Shown piece after piece: positions 14,262 to 21,265 of a stretch of DNA of 21,265 bases. The translations under genes were made by a program, and so were the position numbers. The stretch is from a virus. The first letter of the stretch is position 1, and each line of letters begins with the position of its first letter. The DNA lies in IMG/VR virus record IMGVR_UViG_3300021347_000048, positions 1-21,265 of that record; one strand, written 5' to 3'. The notes under the pieces are model-generated. The model saw nothing but the letters and a program-made list of their open reading frames with translations. It was not told where the DNA came from and did no database searches.

Positions 14262-14287
14262 AATGGTTCCCCTTAGTTAGTCCGCTC

Positions 14288-14315
14288 AGTATACACCCCT
14301 GACAACATATTGCAA
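14288..14315 (-). promoter_or_regulatory. Leftward promoter of the recombination operon
   Basis: On the minus strand, -35 TTGCAA (14315-14310), 16-bp spacer, -10 TATACT (14293-14288). The predicted start is near 14281, with a ~20-base leader ending in AAGGGGAACCATT before the ATG. The -35 is itself one of the three TTGCA operator sites. Confidence 0.6.
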
Positions 14316-14354
14316 GCGCCTAAAACTATTTGCATTAAAAACAAATATATTGCA
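14307..14354. promoter_or_regulatory. Three TTGCA operator-like sites, 20 bp apart
   Basis: TTGCA occurs at 14310-14314, 14330-14334 and 14350-14354, exactly 20 bp apart. The outer two are in an identical ATATTGCA context and the middle one is ATTTGCA. The outer sites double as the -35 boxes of the two divergent promoters. Two-turn spacing puts all sites on one DNA face, as for a cooperatively binding repressor; the adjacent Cro/XRE-type protein is the obvious candidate. Confidence 0.6.
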
Positions 14355-14378
14355 CCGCCAGATAAGATCCGTTACACT
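14350..14378 (+). promoter_or_regulatory. Rightward promoter of the regulator/replication operon
   Basis: -35 TTGCAC (14350-14355), 17-bp spacer, -10 TACACT (14373-14378). The predicted start is near 14385, 25 bases before the regulator ATG, whose ribosome site is GAGGT. The -35 overlaps the third TTGCA site. Confidence 0.55.
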
Positions 14379-14409
14379 CCGTAAATATTAAAACAACTGA
14401 GGTATCAAT

Positions 14410-14628
14410 ATGAAATACAGCACTAGAAAAGCAATAAGCGTCGCGCTGGCGTTGCATGGGGTAGATCAAATTGATCTTGCGCACACGACCGGGTTGAGCA
14501 GTCCAAGCCTTTCTAATCTCAAGGCTAAAAGTGGTAGCAACCCAACGGTTGGCACGCTTATTAAGATTGCGGATGCACTGGACATTAGGTTAAGTGAACT
14601 GATTTCTTATGGTGAGCTTCATGACTAA
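14410..14628 (+). CDS. Cro/XRE-type helix-turn-helix regulator
   Basis: 72 residues, almost all of it a Cro/C1-type HTH: KAISVALALHGVDQIDLAHT, then the turn TGLS (~27-30), recognition helix SSPSLSNLKAK (~30-40), and TVGTLIKIADALDIRLSELI. There is no extra dimerisation or cleavage domain, so it resembles Cro rather than a LexA-like repressor. It is transcribed from the divergent control region and likely binds the TTGCA sites to control both directions, including its own gene. The first helix of its neighbour's gene overlaps its stop by eight bases, giving one operon with the replication protein. Confidence 0.82.
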   Translation: MKYSTRKAISVALALHGVDQIDLAHTTGLSSPSLSNLKAKSGSNPTVGTLIKIADALDIRLSELISYGELHD

Positions 14629-15307
14629 GCCCGGATTTTACGCCATCGTCCCTGCTGACGTTAGGTACAACAAGTCTCTGCCGATGGGCGCTAGGATGTT
14701 GTATGGCGAGCTCACAGCGCTCTGCAATCAAGAGGGCTACTGCTGGGCAACTAACGCATACTTCAGCGAGCTGTATGAGGTGGGTGACAGGACCATCAGC
14801 TCTTGGGTTAGCAAGCTCAAGGAGGCTGGGCACATTGATGTTCAGATGATTCTCCGGGAGGGTAGCAAGCAGGTGCAGGCAAGGCACATTACAATTGCTT
14901 CTGCTAGACCTATAGAAGAAATTCTGCATACCCCTAGAAAAAATCTTCTAGAGGGGGTAGAAGAAAATTTCCATACCCCCACGAAAAAAACTTCTAAGGG
15001 AATAGTACAAGTTAATAATACAAATAATAATACAAGTAATAAGCGCTTTGCGCCGCCCACTGTGTTTGATGTGCAGGTGTATTGTAACGAGAAGCAATAC
15101 AGCATTGATGCTGAGCATTTTGTTAACTACTACGAGGCTAGAGGCTGGATGCTTAACAAGGTCAAAATGAAAAGCTGGAAAGCGGCTTTGGCTACTTGGG
15201 TAAAGCGAGATCAAAACAAAAAAGTACCTGCCAAGAATGCTGGATCAATCAAGAATAGGAATATTGCAGAATCACTAAGTGATAGGAGTTGGGCTTATGA
15301 AAGTTAG
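14621..15307 (+). CDS. Replication initiator with winged-helix N-terminus
   Basis: 228 residues from ATG 14621, chosen because GGTGAG lies five to ten bases before it; ATG 14609 is an alternative. Residues ~5-95 are a helix-turn-helix domain of phage replication proteins (GFYAIVPADVRYNKSLPMGA, LYGELTALCNQEGYCWATNA, DRTISSWVSKLKEAGHIDVQ). A repetitive linker (~95-145) follows, whose DNA forms an origin-like repeat array. The C-terminal part (FVNYYEARGWMLNKVKMKSW, ALATWVKR) matches the end domain seen in many phage replication/helicase-loading proteins. It should bind its own gene and recruit the host or phage helicase, like lambda O. No helicase gene is present in the window. Confidence 0.75.
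   Translation: MTKPGFYAIVPADVRYNKSLPMGARMLYGELTALCNQEGYCWATNAYFSELYEVGDRTISSWVSKLKEAGHIDVQMILREGSKQVQARHITIASARPIEEILHTPRKNLLEGVEENFHTPTKKTSKGIVQVNNTNNNTSNKRFAPPTVFDVQVYCNEKQYSIDAEHFVNYYEARGWMLNKVKMKSWKAALATWVKRDQNKKVPAKNAGSIKNRNIAESLSDRSWAYES
14913..15002 (+). repeat. Two 45-bp direct repeats with internal dyads
   Basis: Units 14913-14957 and 14958-15002 are adjacent. Both begin TAGAAGAAA and share CATACCCC, an A6-7 run, CTTCTA and a final G-run (roughly 70% identity). In the first, TACCC...CTAGAA and TTCTAG...GGGTA form a near-palindrome. The protein repeats as two 15-residue units with HTP at the same place. Confidence 0.8.
15006..15042 (+). repeat. Three tandem AT-rich 12-13-mers
   Basis: TACAAGTTAATAA (15006-15018), TACAAATAATAA (15019-15030) and TACAAGTAATAA (15031-15042) lie end to end with no gap. 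They are almost pure A/T and follow immediately after the 45-bp dyad repeats. Confidence 0.85.
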
Positions 15308-15351
15308 CAAATCAGGGCGCAACAATTTTAAATTAGTTAAGGAGAGTAGTT

Positions 15352-15690
15352 GTGGCATCTAAATATCATCCAACAAAAAGAGTTTTTAAGGGAAAGCATC
15401 CCTACTTCATAGATGGCGAAAGCTATTCAGTTAGGGAGTTGTCTAACTGGACTTTGCAGTATTGCCCAAAAGGCGGAGTGATTGCAGAAACCCTGAAGGG
15501 CCGCTTATATGGCAAAGACTATTGTGAGCCCAAGCATCTTCTATCTGTTGCAGAATATTACGAGCAGAGCGAAGACATAAAAAAATGGAAAGGGTATTGC
15601 AAAGAAGCAAGGTTGAGAGTGCTAAATCGACCAAGGCTCGAAGACAACGCTCAAAAATTATCACAAAAGTGGCTCAGTGCCACGCTTTAA
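15352..15690 (+). CDS. Hypothetical early protein
   Basis: 112 residues from a GTG start with AAGGAG seven bases upstream. It is basic, with KYHPTKRVFKGKHPYFIDGE, a segment like a small helical DNA-binding domain (YSVRELSNWTLQYCPKGGVI, then ETLKGRLYG), and C-terminal helices (DIKKWKGYCKEARLRVLNRP). The middle could be a helix-turn-helix but I cannot confirm it. It lies between the replication initiator and the NinG pair, in the same operon. No family recognised. Confidence 0.6.
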   Translation: MASKYHPTKRVFKGKHPYFIDGESYSVRELSNWTLQYCPKGGVIAETLKGRLYGKDYCEPKHLLSVAEYYEQSEDIKKWKGYCKEARLRVLNRPRLEDNAQKLSQKWLSATL

Positions 15691-15702
15691 CAGGGGAAGC
15701 GC

Positions 15703-16161
15703 ATGAATGGTCAAAAATGGCTTGTGAACAGTGATCGAACACTCGGCAACTTTATTGCTCACGTTACAAAGTTGCACGAGACTAGCGGTTGGGTTACCTA
15801 CGGTTGGCGCACAGGTAGGCAAAGAACCGCAACGCAAAACAACTCGATACATTTGTACTGCCGCATGGTTGCTGACGAGTTGAACGACAAAGGATTCCCG
15901 GCTTTTCTAGACAGCGCTATTTTGAAAGAGTCTATCGAGATAGATTGGACCCAGAGCATGGTGAAGGATTTGTGGCGGACAGTGCAGGGCAAGCTTTTCC
16001 CTGATACTGAGGGCAAAACATCTAAGCTTAGCAGGACTGAGGTAAGTCAGGTTTACGACGTGATAAACAGGGCGCTAATAGAAAAAACATCTGGCAGGGT
16101 CTGTGTTGTATTCCCGCACGTCCAAACCCCTATTGGCAAAAAAGGAAAGGCTAATGCCTAA
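15703..16161 (+). CDS. Phage protein paired with NinG
   Basis: 152 residues, with AGGGGAAG before the ATG. The core reads RTGRQRTATQNNSIHLYCRM, VADELNDKGFPAFLD, IEIDWTQSMVKDLWRTVQGK and VSQVYDVINRALIEKTSGRV. Proteins with this TxxQNNslHl...WT...vK...W pattern are found beside NinG in various phages and are generally unassigned; a distant NinB-like role is conceivable because NinB also carries a DQN motif, but I see no decisive match. It ends by overlapping the NinG start by eight bases, so the two are probably co-translated and may act together in recombination. Confidence 0.65.
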   Translation: MNGQKWLVNSDRTLGNFIAHVTKLHETSGWVTYGWRTGRQRTATQNNSIHLYCRMVADELNDKGFPAFLDSAILKESIEIDWTQSMVKDLWRTVQGKLFPDTEGKTSKLSRTEVSQVYDVINRALIEKTSGRVCVVFPHVQTPIGKKGKANA

Positions 16162-16558
16162 GACTTTGAGGGCGCAGTGCCTCGAGGCCATACAAAAACT
16201 GGCACGAATGAAGGGCGCTGATGACGATGGGTTCTGTACTTGCGTATCCTGCCGCAAGAAAGTCCACTGGAAGGAATGCGACGGGGGGCACTTTATACCT
16301 AAAGGGAGCTCCAGCTATTGGAGCTTAGAGGAGTGCAATGTGTGGCCACAGTGCAAGGGCTGTAACGGGTTTGGTATGCGCTACGGATCTGCCGAGAGTG
16401 AATACACGCTGTGGATGATTGACTACTTTGGGCGGGACTTTGTTGACCAGATGCACCGGGACAAGCGCAAGGTCAAAAAAATGTACGCGGCAGATTATCG
16501 AGATCTGTTAGCTTATTTCAAAGAGCAAATTAAAGAGCAAAAAGAGAGGCTAGGATGA
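16154..16558 (+). CDS. ninG: NinG/Rap-type recombination endonuclease
   Basis: 134 residues from the ATG at 16154, which sits behind GGAAAGG; an upstream in-frame ATG at 16103 lies inside the previous gene and lacks a ribosome site. The diagnostic block is C28-x-C30-x2-C33, VHWKECDGGHFIPKGSS (~37-53), then NVWPQCKGCN with C67-x2-C70, matching the NinG/Rap zinc-binding core. In lambda this protein is a structure-specific nuclease that cuts Holliday junctions and D-loops and stimulates recombination. With the Rad52-like operon it would resolve recombination intermediates. The C-terminus is a basic helix ending in EKQKERLG-like sequence. Confidence 0.88.
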   Translation: MPKTLRAQCLEAIQKLARMKGADDDGFCTCVSCRKKVHWKECDGGHFIPKGSSSYWSLEECNVWPQCKGCNGFGMRYGSAESEYTLWMIDYFGRDFVDQMHRDKRKVKKMYAADYRDLLAYFKEQIKEQKERLG

Positions 16559-16788
16559 ATACTGCAACTGAAACACTAATGTTATGCGAAAACCACGGGT
16601 TCGATGATTTATGGGCACGGACAGCCGGTATCTGTGATTCTGTAATTTTGCACGGCGCCAGTCCGGGTACGGCTCATGCTGAACTACAAGATATCTGGGA
16701 GATTGCTCAGGGCAGGGTAGCTGACAAAATGATACCGCCAGATGAGGATCAGTTGGTGTTGCTAAATCCCACCTTTTTGGTAGACTAA
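16555..16788 (+). CDS. Small acidic hypothetical protein
   Basis: 77 residues, starting in the NinG stop (ATGA). It has CENHGFDDLWARTAGICDSV and TAHAELQDIWEIAQGRVADK, likely two or three helices with a Cys-His pair near the N-terminus, and no membrane segment. Last gene of the operon, followed by two intrinsic terminators. Not recognised. Confidence 0.6.
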   Translation: MNTATETLMLCENHGFDDLWARTAGICDSVILHGASPGTAHAELQDIWEIAQGRVADKMIPPDEDQLVLLNPTFLVD

Positions 16789-16793
16789 CGGTG

Positions 16794-16826
16794 TTGTCGG
16801 AATCCTCCGGCAATATAACTTTTTTT
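16794..16826 (+). terminator. First of two tandem terminators
   Basis: TTGTCGGA pairs with TCCGGCAA (one G-T wobble) around a 4-base loop at 16794-16813. Seven T follow at 16820-16826 after a short gap. It closes the replication/NinG operon. Confidence 0.7.
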
Positions 16827-16856
16827 ATCGTTTTGAAACTGTTTTACTCCCTTTGG

Positions 16857-16881
16857 CCTCGCGTTCGCGGGGTCTTTTTTT
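16857..16881 (+). terminator. Second tandem terminator
   Basis: CCTCGC pairs with GCGGGG (one wobble) around GTTC at 16857-16872, then TC and seven T to 16881. A second hairpin so soon after the first shows strong insulation of the accessory region. The interval 16882-16949 holds two TGGTTATT copies (16910 and 16944) and no convincing gene. Confidence 0.75.
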
Positions 16882-16949
16882 GCCCCGGAAAAGTAACGGA
16901 GTGATTCCCTGGTTATTCCAAAAAGTTATAAGCATATGCAAAATGGTTA

Positions 16950-16978
16950 TTAGACAGTAACAGTTACTAATGTATAAT
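16950..16978 (+). promoter_or_regulatory. Promoter with a 13-bp palindrome in the spacer
   Basis: -35-like TTAGAC (16950-16955), 17-bp spacer, -10 TATAAT (16973-16978). The spacer begins with the perfect palindrome AGTAAC-A-GTTACT (16956-16968). Same layout as 17696-17724. Predicted start near 16985, giving a 39-base leader. A protein bound in the spacer should repress, or remodel the promoter. Confidence 0.65.
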
Positions 16979-17023
16979 GGCCCCATCAAGACGAGAAACA
17001 CTAACTAAACAAAGGGCAACAAA

Positions 17024-17278
17024 ATGCAAAATTACGAAGAACGTTTATGTGAAGCACTAGCTAAACTAGCAATTCAAGCTAAGACTTGTAAGGCGGCAGA
17101 TAAAGCTCATACAGATATATGTGTAGCGTATGAAAATGTTTGGAATTGTGAAGATGAAGAAGGAACTGAAGAATACGACTATTTTGTTTCCTGTTCTGTC
17201 ATGGGCTTTATTGATCAGGAAAACTTAAAAGACGAGCCATATTATCGCGATATAGCCGCAGTATTTAAAATTAGATAG
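17024..17278 (+). CDS. Small acidic accessory protein
   Basis: 84 residues with AAAGGGCAACAAA before the ATG. N-terminal helices (EERLCEALAKLAIQAKTCK, KAHTDICVAYENVW) carry basic residues, while the middle is strongly acidic (NCEDEEGTEEYDYF). By my hand count there are about 18 Asp/Glu against 9 Lys/Arg. Five Cys are present but not in a metal-site spacing. First gene behind a regulated promoter and two terminators, so probably expressed early. Not recognised; a host-takeover or inhibitor role would be speculation from position and charge. Confidence 0.6.
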   Translation: MQNYEERLCEALAKLAIQAKTCKAADKAHTDICVAYENVWNCEDEEGTEEYDYFVSCSVMGFIDQENLKDEPYYRDIAAVFKIR

Positions 17279-17288
17279 TAATCTAACC

Positions 17289-17304
17289 GCCCCCGCGAGG
17301 GGGC
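17289..17304 (+). other. GC-rich hairpin with GNRA loop, no T-run
   Basis: GCCCCC and GGGGGC pair perfectly around GCGA, forming a C(GCGA)G GNRA tetraloop. AATTAAAGG follows rather than T, so it is not a standard terminator. It lies between two genes of one transcript, ~18 bases before the next ATG, and could be a processing, stability or partial-termination element. Confidence 0.65.
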
Positions 17305-17322
17305 AATTAAAGGGGAAGTAAA

Positions 17323-17685
17323 ATGGAAAAAATATTTATGGGTTTCAACGCACGACTACCAGAGTATTGCAACACGGATGACCGCCTTGCAGCGCACTGC
17401 TTGATCTCTGAGCTGTTGGCCGCAGAGTGTACGGTGACTATCAATGACGGTGAGGATTATTGCCTTGAGCAGTCTGCAGACTTCATCGAGATCCTTGAGG
17501 CCATGTCGAGCACTGGTGAAGATATTGTCATTCCCTTCGACAAGGATGGCAACGAACTCGGATGGTTCTACCTGATCTACGCCAACGGTTCTGAGGGCAA
17601 CCCAATGATCTTGATTAGCGATCTGGTGGCCAACTCTTTCTGCGAAGGGATCTACAACAAGGTTTCTGAGCAACTTGCTGTTTAA
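17323..17685 (+). CDS. Acidic accessory protein, function unknown
   Basis: 120 residues with AAGGGGAAG seven bases upstream. It is markedly acidic (about 20 Asp/Glu against 5 Lys/Arg by hand count). Segments include CLISELLAAECTVTINDGED, CLEQSADFIEILEAM, and a beta-like stretch DKDGNELGWFYLIY. No membrane segment or catalytic motif. The high negative charge and small size are compatible with a DNA-mimic or inhibitor but are not evidence for it. Located just downstream of the GNRA hairpin, in the transcript begun at 16985. Confidence 0.65.
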   Translation: MEKIFMGFNARLPEYCNTDDRLAAHCLISELLAAECTVTINDGEDYCLEQSADFIEILEAMSSTGEDIVIPFDKDGNELGWFYLIYANGSEGNPMILISDLVANSFCEGIYNKVSEQLAV

Positions 17686-17695
17686 CCTAAAGGGG

Positions 17696-17724
17696 TTGCA
17701 TGGTAACTGTTACCGGGTTATCAT
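17696..17724 (+). promoter_or_regulatory. Second promoter with the shared palindrome
   Basis: -35 TTGCAT (17696-17701), 17-bp spacer, -10 TATCAT (17719-17724). The palindrome GGTAAC-T-GTTACC (17702-17714) begins right after the -35, as at 16956. The shared core is GTAAC-W-GTTAC. Predicted start near 17731, 30 bases before the ATG at 17761. Confidence 0.65.
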
Positions 17725-17760
17725 GTAGCCTCACTAACGAGATAGGTAAGGGGAACAAAA

Positions 17761-18239
17761 TGAAAAACACTACTTTTGATGAAATTATTGCATGGCACAT
17801 TCCTAGCGACTGGGATCACTGCCTAGCGTCTTTGCCTGAAGCGGTCTTAGACCATGCAGTGTATACTTGGCTCGCTACGCATAAAACGTGGCTCGATGAT
17901 TGCTTCCCGGAATGCGCTTATGAGCGCTCTCTGGAGTTGCTTAACGTTCTTTACCGAGACGGGACTGATCAGCAGTTTGCGGAGCTAATGATTCAGATCA
18001 GGCAGGACTATTCGGAGAAGCATCAGATAGCCGAGAGAGGTAATAAGGATGTATTTTATTTCAGCGAAGCTACAGGTGACTTTGAAAGTGATAGCCTTAT
18101 CGGTGCTTTTAATGGTGATCGCCATCTTTCTTTTGCTGAGTGTTACCGCAACGATCTGTACCTATGGCTTGAAGATCGCATTGAGGGTGTTATCCTCGAT
18201 GAGATGGGGCTGGAACACAACTACGGAGGAGACCTGTAA
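17761..18239 (+). CDS. Acidic accessory protein with many aromatics
   Basis: 159 residues from the ATG at 17761, behind AAGGGGAACAAA. The longer frame starting at 17700 lies on top of the -35 and palindrome, so it is rejected. The protein is rich in Trp, His and acidic residues (EIIAWHIPSDWDHCLASLPE; THKTWLDDCFPECAYERSLE), about 30 acidic to 11 basic by hand count, and appears all-helical. ELMIQIRQDYSEKHQIAE is a clear amphipathic helix. No known motif. It overlaps the HTH gene by one base (TAATG), indicating a small regulated operon. Confidence 0.65.
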
Positions 18240-18457
18240 TGACGCAATCACAACGAGTGCTGGATTACTTACAACAAGGGAAAAAGCTGACCTGCCTGAA
18301 CGCTTTTAATGAGCTTGGCATCACTCAGGTGGCCGCTAGGATTTTTGAACTGAAGCGAGATGGCGAGGTTATTCTTAGCTCAAGGATAAAAGTGAAAAAT
18401 AGGTACGGCGAAGACTGTATCGTCAGCGAGTATTTTATGGAGGTGCAAAATGGGTAA
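18239..18457 (+). CDS. Small helix-turn-helix protein
   Basis: 72 residues. SQRVLDYLQQGKKLTCLNAF, NELGITQVAARIFELKRDGE and the following wing fit the short winged HTH found in many phage accessory regions (HTH_39-type): a recognition helix centred on TQVAARIFEL. Likely DNA-binding and regulatory. Genes of this type often control neighbouring early operons, and it lies directly downstream of one of the palindrome promoters, so it is a candidate to bind GTAAC-W-GTTAC. Start fixed by TAATG overlap with the upstream gene. Confidence 0.72.
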   Translation: MTQSQRVLDYLQQGKKLTCLNAFNELGITQVAARIFELKRDGEVILSSRIKVKNRYGEDCIVSEYFMEVQNG

Positions 18458-18686
18458 GGGATCAGCTCCAAGACCAATGCCAGACAAAGAGGCTTTTGAT
18501 AAAAACTTTGACGTAGTGTTTAACAAAGCATCCGACAGCGGCCCGAAGCCAAAGGCTCAGATAATGCGAGAGATGCGAGAGCGCAGAAATAACGAGGGCA
18601 TGACCGAGCTTAACATCTGGGTAAACCCGCAACAAAAGCTGGCTATCGAAGCCATATTGCAAGCAGATACAGCCCCATTGCGCTAG
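18450..18686 (+). CDS. Small basic hypothetical protein
   Basis: 78 residues, overlapping the previous gene by eight bases. The N-terminus GKGSAPRPMPDKEAFDKNFD is a recurring opening in small phage proteins. A basic helix KAQIMREMRERRNNEGM is followed by TELNIWVNPQQKLAIEAILQ, a strand-then-helix order that could be a ribbon-helix-helix-like end. Function not recognised. Last gene of the accessory operon. Confidence 0.6.
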   Translation: MGKGSAPRPMPDKEAFDKNFDVVFNKASDSGPKPKAQIMREMRERRNNEGMTELNIWVNPQQKLAIEAILQADTAPLR

Positions 18687-18705
18687 TGATCAACTTGTGT
18701 ACAAT
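18678..18705 (+). promoter_or_regulatory. Promoter for the phosphoesterase/terminase unit
   Basis: -35 TTGCGC (18678-18683), 16-bp spacer, -10 TACAAT (18700-18705) preceded by TG. Predicted start near 18712, leaving a short leader with GGAGGG (18714-18719) nine bases before the ATG at 18729. The promoter overlaps the last codons of the previous gene. Confidence 0.5.
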
Positions 18706-18728
18706 ATAGCCACGGAGGGCTACCCCCT

Positions 18729-19565
18729 ATGTTCGATTACCTCAAAGATTTATTCAAACGCAGAAAAGGCAAGCCATTGCCTCGCCATATGGTTATCCCT
18801 GACACCCAAACAAAACCGGGTCAGTCTTGGGAACATCTCCGCTGGGCAGGACTGTATGCCGTCAAAACAAAACCAGATGTCATTGTCCACATTGGAGACC
18901 ATTGGGACTTTCCCTCGCTGTCTCAGCACGACGCTAAGGGCAGTAAGTCTTTCGAGGGGCGTAGGTATGTCGAGGACGTCAACGCCGGTATAAGCGCAAT
19001 GAGAGCCTTCCTAGACCCTATCAGGGAGGAGCAGGCCAAGCTTAAGAACGACAAGAAGAAGCAGTGGAACCCTCGGCTGGTGTTTACCATTGGCAACCAT
19101 GAGTACCGTATCGAGCGGGCTCTTGATGCTGACGTTAAGCTAGAGGGCCTGATGAGCTATGATGACTTGATGCTCAAGGAGATGGGCTGGGAGGTTTATG
19201 ACTTCCTGAAGCCTGTAGTGATTGATGGCGTTTGTTATGCCCACTACCATTGCTCAGGTGTGATGGGCCGCCCTGTGTCGAGCCCTGATTTAATGCTAAA
19301 GAAGCTCCATATGTCCACGGTGATGGGCCACGTTCAGGACCGAGCCATAGCGTTCAACAAGAGGGCTGATGGTAAGAGATTGACCGGGATATTCGCAGGG
19401 ATCTTTTACACGCATGCCGAGGATTACCTCAACTATCAGACTAACAATAGCTGGCGTGGTATCTGGATGCTCAACGAGGTGAAGGACGGTGAGTTTGATG
19501 AGATGCCGATTAGCCTAGACTACCTAGCTAGGACTTATATGGATGAAGATGAGGTATGCGACTAA
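18729..19565 (+). CDS. Calcineurin-like metallophosphoesterase
   Basis: 278 residues. The fold's metal motifs are in order: D25-x-Q27 in IPDTQTKPG, G56-D57-H58-x-D60, G122-N123-H124-E125, H172 and H174 in YAHYH, and G200-H201-x-Q203. These residues bind two metal ions and hydrolyse phosphoester bonds. It is a full-length single domain. Position directly upstream of the terminase genes is seen in other phage genomes, but the substrate is unknown; nucleic-acid 3'-phosphate or cyclic nucleotide signals are both possible. It would act in the cytoplasm. The stop overlaps the next start (TAATG). Confidence 0.85.
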   Translation: MFDYLKDLFKRRKGKPLPRHMVIPDTQTKPGQSWEHLRWAGLYAVKTKPDVIVHIGDHWDFPSLSQHDAKGSKSFEGRRYVEDVNAGISAMRAFLDPIREEQAKLKNDKKKQWNPRLVFTIGNHEYRIERALDADVKLEGLMSYDDLMLKEMGWEVYDFLKPVVIDGVCYAHYHCSGVMGRPVSSPDLMLKKLHMSTVMGHVQDRAIAFNKRADGKRLTGIFAGIFYTHAEDYLNYQTNNSWRGIWMLNEVKDGEFDEMPISLDYLARTYMDEDEVCD

Positions 19566-19768
19566 TGGACAACATCCGCTGGTTAAAAAAACAGGAAAAG
19601 CCAACGTCAGGCATGACCTTGACCAGAGTATTTTGTGATGATTGCGGGACCGGCCTAGAGTATTGGCTAAGTAAAGAGCAGGACACAGCATATGGACTTT
19701 GCCCTGCCTGCCACCTAGGGGCTCCAATTGAAGTTAGTTGGTCAGAGCAGATACAAGATGACCAATAG
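19565..19768 (+). CDS. Small zinc-ribbon protein
   Basis: 67 residues from the ATG at 19565 (TAATG overlap; GAGGT lies nine to ten bases upstream). An ATG at 19556 has its ribosome site too close. C24-x2-C27 and C46-x2-C49 make a zinc ribbon (VFCDDCGTGLEYW, then GLCPACHLGAP). The ends are charged and polar. It may bind nucleic acid or a protein partner; no further assignment is possible. The gene ends in CAA TAG, inside the repeated promoter motif that follows. Confidence 0.7.
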   Translation: MDNIRWLKKQEKPTSGMTLTRVFCDDCGTGLEYWLSKEQDTAYGLCPACHLGAPIEVSWSEQIQDDQ

Positions 19769-19783: not shown

Positions 19784-19963
19784 ATGAGCAAATTTATCAT
19801 TGGCAGTGACCTTAGCGACGCGGACCTAGAACTTGTGCAAGAACTAGCTCAGGCGCTCTATGATCGCGACCAGCTACTGCTTGATGATGTGATACACCTA
19901 TGTAGACAACGACTGGAAAGGGCCTGTAGATGTTTTCAGAGCCCTTGTATATGTGAAGAATGA
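19784..19963 (+). CDS. Small 59-residue protein before terminase
   Basis: 59 residues: MSKFIIGSDLSDADLELVQE, then a helical Leu/Asp-rich stretch (ALYDRDQLLLDDVIHLC), a basic RQRLERACR and a Cys-rich end CFQSPCICEE. The ATG has no ribosome-binding sequence and coincides with the predicted transcription start, pointing to leaderless translation. Its stop overlaps the terminase small subunit start (ATGA). The coupling argues that it is real and that its translation drives terS. Four Cys in its last ~17 residues could bind a metal, or pair in the virion. No family recognised. Confidence 0.65.
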   Translation: MSKFIIGSDLSDADLELVQELAQALYDRDQLLLDDVIHLCRQRLERACRCFQSPCICEE

Positions 19964-20382
19964 GACCAACAATATTTACTGATGAGCTTTCGAGCACCAT
20001 CTGCCGCAGACTAGCACTGGGTGAAAGCGCCCGACAGATCTGCCGTGATGACTCTATGCCTGTGATAAGTACGTTGATGAAGTGGGTAACAGACCCTGAC
20101 AAGAAAGAGTTTTCGGAACAGTACGCGAGGGCTAGAGACTTTCAGGCTGATTACTATTTTGATGAGATCGTAGATATCGCTGATGAGCTGGGCGATGAGT
20201 CTGACTCTAATCAAATCAACCGAGCAAAACTTAGGATAGATTCACGCAAGTGGAAGGTAGCTAGAATGTCACCGCGCAAGTATGGAGACAAACAGCAAAT
20301 TGATCACACGTCATCTGACGAGTCGTTCAAGCCTACCGTTATCAAACTTGTAGCTGAGCCCCTATCCGATGAGCCAAGCTGA
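19960..20382 (+). CDS. terS: Terminase small subunit, Sf6-like
   Basis: 140 residues. Residues ~8-45 form a helix-turn-helix (ELSSTICRRLALGESARQIC, then SMPVISTLMKWV) that would bind the packaging site. FSEQYARARDFQADYYFDEI and NRAKLRIDSRKWKVARMSPR follow and match the oligomerisation region of Sf6-type small terminases. It recognises phage DNA and activates the large subunit. The start overlaps the 59-residue gene, and the end overlaps terL by 14 bases. The packaging signal, if within terS as in related phages, would lie here. Confidence 0.85.
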   Translation: MRPTIFTDELSSTICRRLALGESARQICRDDSMPVISTLMKWVTDPDKKEFSEQYARARDFQADYYFDEIVDIADELGDESDSNQINRAKLRIDSRKWKVARMSPRKYGDKQQIDHTSSDESFKPTVIKLVAEPLSDEPS

Positions 20383-21265
20383 GATATCCCTGCCACCCAA
20401 GATCGTAGACCTTTTCAGTGGAGAGGCTCGGTACAGGTGCGCCTACGGTGGCCGAGGGTCCGCCAAGACTAGATCGTTTGCGTTGATGACTGCGGTCCGT
20501 GGTTACCAGTGGGGGATGGAAGGAAAGCAGGGCCAGATCCTATGTGCTCGAGAACACCTAAACTCTCTGGATGAATCCTCTCTGGAGGAGGTCAAGTCTG
20601 CCATACGCAGTGTTCCTTGGCTTGCCGCCTATTACGAGATGGGCGAGAAGTACATCAGGTCTAAGGACGGCAACATTAGCTATGTGTTTGCCGGGTTGCG
20701 CAGAAACCTAGATAGCATCAAATCCAAAGCTAGAATTATCCTGTGCTGGGTTGATGAGGCCGAGGGAGTATCTGATACCGCTTGGCAGAAGCTAATACCT
20801 ACCGTGCGGGAAGAGGACTCTGAGATCTGGGTCACATGGAACCCTGAGACAAAGCACTCTGCAACGCATAGGCGGTTTAGATTAAGCCCGCCAGAGTCCA
20901 TGCGAATATCTGAGATCAACTGGCGAGACAACCCATTCTTTCCGGAGGTTTTAGAGACTGAGCGGCTAGAGGATAAAAAGAACAGACCCGATCTTTATGA
21001 TCACATCTGGGAAGGTCAGATGCTGGTCCACGCTGACGGTGCGTATTATGCCGTAGAGATGCGTGAGGCCACGGCGCAGTCTAGAATTACCAATGTGCCA
21101 TACGACCGCTCTGTTGGCGTTGTAACGGCTTGGGATCTCGGGGTAGGTGATTCTACCTCTATATGGTTTGCGCAGTTTGTAGGGGCTGAGGTGCGCCTTA
21201 TAGACTATTATGAATGCAGTGGTGTAGGTCTGGACCATTATGCTCGCATATTGAACGAAAAGGGC
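20369..21265 (+). CDS. terL: Terminase large subunit, 3' partial
   Basis: 299 residues are visible before the window ends; the frame is still open. ATG at 20369 overlaps terS. Walker A is YGGRGSAKT (26-34); Walker B is IILCWVDEAE with D129-E130; the coupling motif region is WVTWNPET (154-161). The C-terminal nuclease domain has begun: AWDLGVGDST with D256 as a likely metal ligand. This motor translocates DNA into the prohead through the portal, and the nuclease cuts the concatemer. The sequence is closest in character to Sf6/P22-type enzymes, consistent with headful packaging, though that is inference. Confidence 0.92.
   Translation, partial: MSQAEISLPPKIVDLFSGEARYRCAYGGRGSAKTRSFALMTAVRGYQWGMEGKQGQILCAREHLNSLDESSLEEVKSAIRSVPWLAAYYEMGEKYIRSKDGNISYVFAGLRRNLDSIKSKARIILCWVDEAEGVSDTAWQKLIPTVREEDSEIWVTWNPETKHSATHRRFRLSPPESMRISEINWRDNPFFPEVLETERLEDKKNRPDLYDHIWEGQMLVHADGAYYAVEMREATAQSRITNVPYDRSVGVVTAWDLGVGDSTSIWFAQFVGAEVRLIDYYECSGVGLDHYARILNEKG

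Follow-up and report, generated by a model that had tools for sequence, protein, structure and literature searches.

A conserved 11-bp palindrome within late promoters of a marine podovirus-like phage family: a candidate repressor operator

Two putative late promoters of a marine phage carry the same short palindrome between their −35 and −10 elements, and comparison with relatives suggests that the two palindromes are, on balance, copies of one repressor operator that recurs in the sigma-70-type late promoters of a marine podovirus-like family. The window in which they were found, the whole 21,265-base sequence of an IMG/VR record, is a partial genome of such a phage, and the promoters are here called P1 and P2. 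That the 11-bp site shared with relatives is a regulatory switch is, judging from its sequence conservation, very probable. Binding of a protein to the site, its repressive effect and the activity of the promoters themselves are what we infer from that conservation and from the way in which the site is placed.

The exact palindrome GTAACNGTTAC is present in the window only at 16957-16967 (candidate operator O1, GTAAC-A-GTTAC) and at 17703-17713 (candidate operator O2, GTAAC-T-GTTAC), while Markov-shuffled windows held a mean of 0.008 copies and two copies in 0 of 1000 cases. Both assignments draw on this exact match together with the conservation described below. Each copy lies between a sigma-70-like −35 and −10, occupies 11 of the 16-17 spacer bases, and is separated from the −10 by 5 bp at P1 and P2 alike, which bears out an earlier sequence-only reading that had seen one palindrome at two promoters and at the same distance from −10. 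That reading had described the unit as 13 bp long (AGTAACAGTTACT at 16956-16968 and GGTAACTGTTACC at 17702-17714), with A or T at its centre. What relatives conserve is instead the 11-bp core GTAAC-N-GTTAC: the outer pair of the 13-mer is in them only R...Y, its base pairing not being kept, and the centre is A, C, G or T. The 17-bp spacers ascribed to both promoters hold for P2 (TTGCAT - 17 bp - TATCAT, 17696-17724, + strand), which has 8 of 12 consensus matches, is not among the promoters given by the scan that gave P1, and recurs before different genes in relatives. They do not hold for P1, where the best spacer is 16 bp. Its good −35 is TAGACA at 16951-16956, giving TAGACA - 16 bp - TATAAT (16951-16978, + strand) with 11 of 12 consensus matches and conservation in relatives, and a 17-bp version would need TTAGAC as −35, a match of 2 in 6. 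Nor does the palindrome start one base after the −35, as had been thought: with 17-bp boxes the 13-mer begins immediately after it. P1 has in addition an 8-bp palindrome of its own, GCATATGC at 16932-16939, some 11 bp upstream of the −35, kept in nearly all copies of P1 and absent at P2; one relative, L150, has CCATATGC there instead.

How widely is the site shared? Relatives were collected through protein homology, without use of the site, with genes 17760 and 17323 and with NinG and TerS alignments. In the set from the TerS search the site is present in 28 of the 28 IMG/VR contigs that hold the late module plus its upstream DNA (27 with gene 18239, and L299 with gene 18450 only), four more late-module contigs beginning too late to show the promoter region, and the NinG-based search agrees. 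The sequence-only reading had let its case depend on conservation in homologous intergenic regions; these were examined, the site proved to be conserved in them, and the proposal of a dedicated regulator for both promoters draws strong support from this. Across 15 dissimilar representative promoters, whose similarity to one another over 45 nt is below 90%, the ten core bases are invariant; in the same 15 the best-kept −35 or −10 base reaches at most 14 of 15 and the commonest centre base 6 (C 6, A 4, T 3, G 2). Because the site had been gathered as an exact match, the same contigs were checked for promoter-like copies with 1-2 core mismatches, and this yielded a single chance-like match, in the window. 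Genomes have 1-3 promoters with the site, and the spacer of P2 in L005 is 18 bp.

Part of the conservation is explained by shared descent, since on the terminase tree most carriers fall in one lineage (two label changes, with a single clade not rejected, AU p = 0.21), and the core could also be invariant because something other than a repressor constrains the promoter DNA. Related non-carriers of the site also exist. Four non-carriers have another palindrome, CCATT-N(1-2)-AATGG, directly against TATAAT (L291:5237, L295:4210, L243:10449 and L270:10702), in L291 and L295 upstream of terminase, and this palindrome may be the operator of another regulator. A further oddity is contig L174 (1-1500), in which the P1 promoter is reversed beside the Erf/exonuclease block, an arrangement that reflects an inversion in the genome or else an error of assembly.

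When all viral contigs were scanned for the site plus a −10 pattern, relatives missed by the earlier queries with genes 17760 and 17323 turned up (L053, L076, L082, L098, L100, L113, L128 and L129), though most of the at least 119 viral palindrome-plus-−10 matches are unrelated to the window phage and were taken as chance. In most of these distant relatives the early region is rearranged and the promoter comes after the SSB operon, not ninG. Where the contig covers it, the rearranged relatives keep the order promoter, accessory genes, 17760, 18239, 18450, phosphoesterase, terminase: the promoter moved together with the late module. L076 and L082 have a terminator-like hairpin just before the promoter, as at 16791-16874 of the window, and the rearranged relatives include TTGACG-16-TATAAT promoters. 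With the −35 added, the composite pattern matched 21 viral stretches, 20 of them in the family of the window phage, and in 257 Gb of bacterial genomes it gave 3 matches against a chance estimate from the pattern of about 3.7. These bacterial matches (L159-L161), at a chance-level number and with no phage context noted, were set aside.

Portal, major head protein and endolysin genes are encoded in the window. Its Erf/exonuclease/SSB block is oriented leftwards, and rightward run genes for a Cro-type protein, a replication initiator, NinB- and NinG-like proteins, small ORFs, a metallophosphoesterase and terminase. P1 and P2 are placed after upstream-operon terminators (two intrinsic-terminator-like hairpins on the + strand, 16791-16816 and 16855-16874, mark the end of the operon that precedes P1), and what they face is first a set of small genes that vary and, beyond these, the terminase and structural genes. 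Behind P1 are accessory ORFs of 84 aa (17024-17278) and 120 aa (17323-17685, phrog_22565). P2 is followed by a repeated 5′ leader with a ribosome-binding site, CCTCACTAACGAGATAGGTAAGGGGAACAAA (17725-17759), common to different cassettes, and then by a conserved late-module ORF of 159 aa (17760-18239), genes 18239 and 18450, the metallophosphoesterase (18729-19565, phrog_221) in the same co-directional block, and the small and large terminase subunits (19960-21265), late genes downstream of both promoters; all of these are on the + strand.

No + strand terminator-like site is predicted between 16875 and 19000, all genes from 17024 through terminase are co-directional, and in the near-complete carrier G012 (L229 plus L230) both promoters stand ahead of terminase and a long structural block. 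P1 and P2 are for these reasons regarded as late-operon promoters, which most likely drive the late operon plus its accessory cassettes. The earlier proposal of two accessory operons is only half right: each promoter does have accessory genes immediately behind it, but with no terminator predicted in that interval P1 and P2 look like promoters of the late operon into which accessory cassettes have been inserted. The genes directly behind P1 and P2 vary among phages and the promoter and leader (CCTCACTAACGAGATA...AAGGGG) are kept, so that the unit seems also to be a cassette joint; ORF 17024 is replaced by unrelated ORFs in relatives, and between the window and L005 the switch is at the start codon. 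A link of the site to gene 17323 was rejected, the gene being also present in unrelated phages without the site. The ribosome-binding site of gene 17323 is closely preceded by a GC-rich hairpin with no T-run, CCGCCCCCGCGAGGGGGC (17283-17305), which is possibly an mRNA processing or stability element, and L210 has a similar hairpin after its P1 leader. The accessory block of G012 contains a 283-aa protein (L229:530-1381) that is, by eye, antirestriction ArdC-like.

What would a palindrome so placed do? Host RNA polymerase with a sigma factor of the sigma-70 type would initiate transcription of the late operon, exchangeable accessory genes included, at these promoters, and a dimeric repressor on GTAAC-N-GTTAC would sit where sigma contacts the −35 and −10. 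Once bound it would compete with RNA polymerase, blocking or slowing initiation, and the promoters would be held down for part of infection or damped by feedback. That the palindrome fills the spacer of a near-consensus promoter favours a repressor operator, and the site is symmetrical, lies between −35 and −10 and is conserved at homologous promoters; for P2, with its weaker −35 and −10 (8 of 12), the case for a strong basal promoter is less easily made. MerR-type promoters require 19-20 bp spacers. The spacers here, with 16, 17 or 18 bp in place of 19-20 bp around a centred operator, argue against MerR-type activation, and repression over MerR, as the sequence-only reading had preferred, is the best inference from the position of the site and these lengths.

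Other forms of activation merit consideration, as late operons are commonly switched on and boxes of the P2 type (TTGCAT, TATCAT/TACCAT) are weak: a protein of phage or host at the site could recruit or remodel RNA polymerase and so switch the late promoters on. However, several promoter copies are near consensus unaided, P1 and the TTGACG-16-TATAAT promoters of relatives among them, spacers of 16-18 bp are unsuited to MerR-type spacer activation, and activators of other types usually have their sites over the −35 or farther upstream. We consider activation unlikely. P1 closely follows ninB/ninG and precedes terminase, as a lambdoid late promoter would, which evokes a different possibility, that of a Q-type antitermination site which loads an antiterminator onto RNA polymerase. 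To our knowledge, the lambdoid Q-binding element is not a short and perfect palindrome. One genome can have two or three copies of the site, the stretch downstream of P1 and P2 has no predicted + strand terminator as far as 19000, and there is no Q-like protein among the proteins searched (Pfam and PHROGs scans of the tested ORFs in 14410-19768 gave no match to a Q family, several small ORFs being without assignment), all of which makes antitermination a most improbable role.

If the site is a repressor operator, what reads it? No phage regulator with contact residues clearly matched to the site was found. The sequence-only reading had pointed to the 72-residue Cro/C1-type protein (14410-14628, + strand, PF13443), and no other clear HTH-domain regulator was found in the carrier genomes with good coverage, G012 among them. 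Yet its recognition helices vary among carriers of the identical site (SSPSLSNLK, SQAALSNLK, RPQQLSFMK, NPAHLSRLM, TQSQLSLSL), and the divergent promoter region of cro itself has TTGCAA-type elements rather than GTAACNGTTAC, no copy of the site within 2 mismatches being found between 14262 and 14409; Cro is very unlikely to be the reader. The TTGCAA/TTGCA-type elements at 14262-14409, between gene 13914 and cro, differ between clades and are likely the Cro operators. The second protein put forward in the same reading is the winged-helix HTH_39 product of gene 18239 (18239-18457, + strand, PF14090, 1.2e-11), a rival regulator candidate with a fairly conserved recognition helix. It is missing from carrier G012 and found in G022, which lacks the site, and was rejected as sole reader; that it reads the site at all is doubtful. 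Gene 15352 was also discarded, being absent from carrier G012 and having homologues in non-carriers such as L243. Its product, a putative small DNA-binding protein (15352-15690, + strand), has no PHROGs or Pfam match and is of a diverse family, encoded between rep and ninB in this and several other phages, whose members have a stretch resembling a helix-turn-helix and, C-terminally, an LS-KWLR-KL motif.

At the head of the ranking, as a tentative choice whose likelihood is short of even, is the 78-aa protein of gene 18450 (18450-18686, + strand), which has an invariant basic helix and the best co-occurrence with the operator. Its C-terminal part is present in 22 of 22 carrier contigs and in 0 of 21 non-carrier loci, a co-occurrence to which the terminase tree lends about two changes, one origin for all carriers not being rejected. 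The protein would act by feedback, for gene 18450 is inside the operon that its protein would control. Residues K33, K35, A36, M39, R40, M42, R43 and R46 of the basic helix, together with G50 and W57, are invariant over 15 homologues, and the G012/L299 lineage has stand-alone forms of 47-51 aa. AlphaFold gives helix-extended-helix (pTM 0.34), a prediction that ends after one helix and so differs from the strand-helix-helix (Arc-like) fold. Searches found no fold match in the PDB or structure library, no recognised DNA-binding fold or clear family, and no homologues among named phages; one homologue has a weak MazE-like match (PF11455, 0.0065). A bolder proposal, to which we give distinctly less credence, is that this protein and its stand-alone forms are a new class of tiny dimeric phage repressor reading GTAACNGTTAC. 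An invariant arginine-rich helix would in that case be followed by a strand and helix, the dimer would bind GTAACNGTTAC, and feedback would be exerted on late promoters doubling as docking points for interchangeable accessory genes.

Does the reader have to be phage-encoded? A host transcription factor could instead tie the late promoters to host state, and while that is itself an uncertain suggestion, a host protein is almost as likely as the gene 18450 protein. The site does not vary even though the recognisable phage HTH proteins have different recognition residues, and the existence of related non-carriers likewise counts for a host factor. Against it, the composite promoter is at chance level in bacterial genomes, and the co-occurrence of gene 18450 favours a phage factor.

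A repressor operator within a promoter, repeated at several promoters of a phage, is of a known kind; none of the sources searched had this sequence, this phage family or this invariance, and for the exact site only unrelated papers were found. Weak NCBIfam matches to BacA and UrfF led to no usable literature. As a concrete regulatory code for the late promoters of an uncultured marine phage family, one 11-bp site can be searched for in metagenomes, and distant relatives beyond the earlier protein queries have already been recovered with it. It also draws attention to the swapping of accessory genes behind an unchanged promoter-operator-leader unit and narrows the regulator search to a few short genes. 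Should gene 18450 encode the regulator, a new type of small DNA-binding protein would be at hand.

Among named phages the best portal match, 47% identical, is Octadecabacter Antarctic DB virus 2 (MW805364), which has a similar order of early block, then regulator-like genes, then terminase, but unlike the window phage its genome has no GTAACNGTTAC and no match to the 18239 family. At lambdoid pR′ the Q-binding element is between −35 and −10, after the nin genes and before the late genes. The P1 site shares that location, but is a perfect palindrome, has several copies per genome, and is without a downstream terminator or Q-like protein that could be found. Arc of P22 is a small ribbon-helix-helix protein that exerts feedback repression on the strong sigma-70 ant promoter of its own operon, with a 21-bp operator between −10 and −35. 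The candidate operator proposed here is similarly located and feedback is similarly proposed, though it is an 11-bp palindrome found at 1-3 promoters, and no protein was recognised as being of the ribbon-helix-helix type. The SAS/ESAS elements of Cluster K mycobacteriophages are conserved short elements, partly inverted repeats, ahead of some non-structural genes (PMC3203893), and the site of the window phage is likewise a conserved short element repeated ahead of phage genes. ESAS, imperfect inverted repeats of 17 bp, have variable spacers, are tied to translation starts and differ between subclusters (PMC3203893); the family of the window phage, in contrast, has one invariant 11-bp core at a fixed place inside the promoter.
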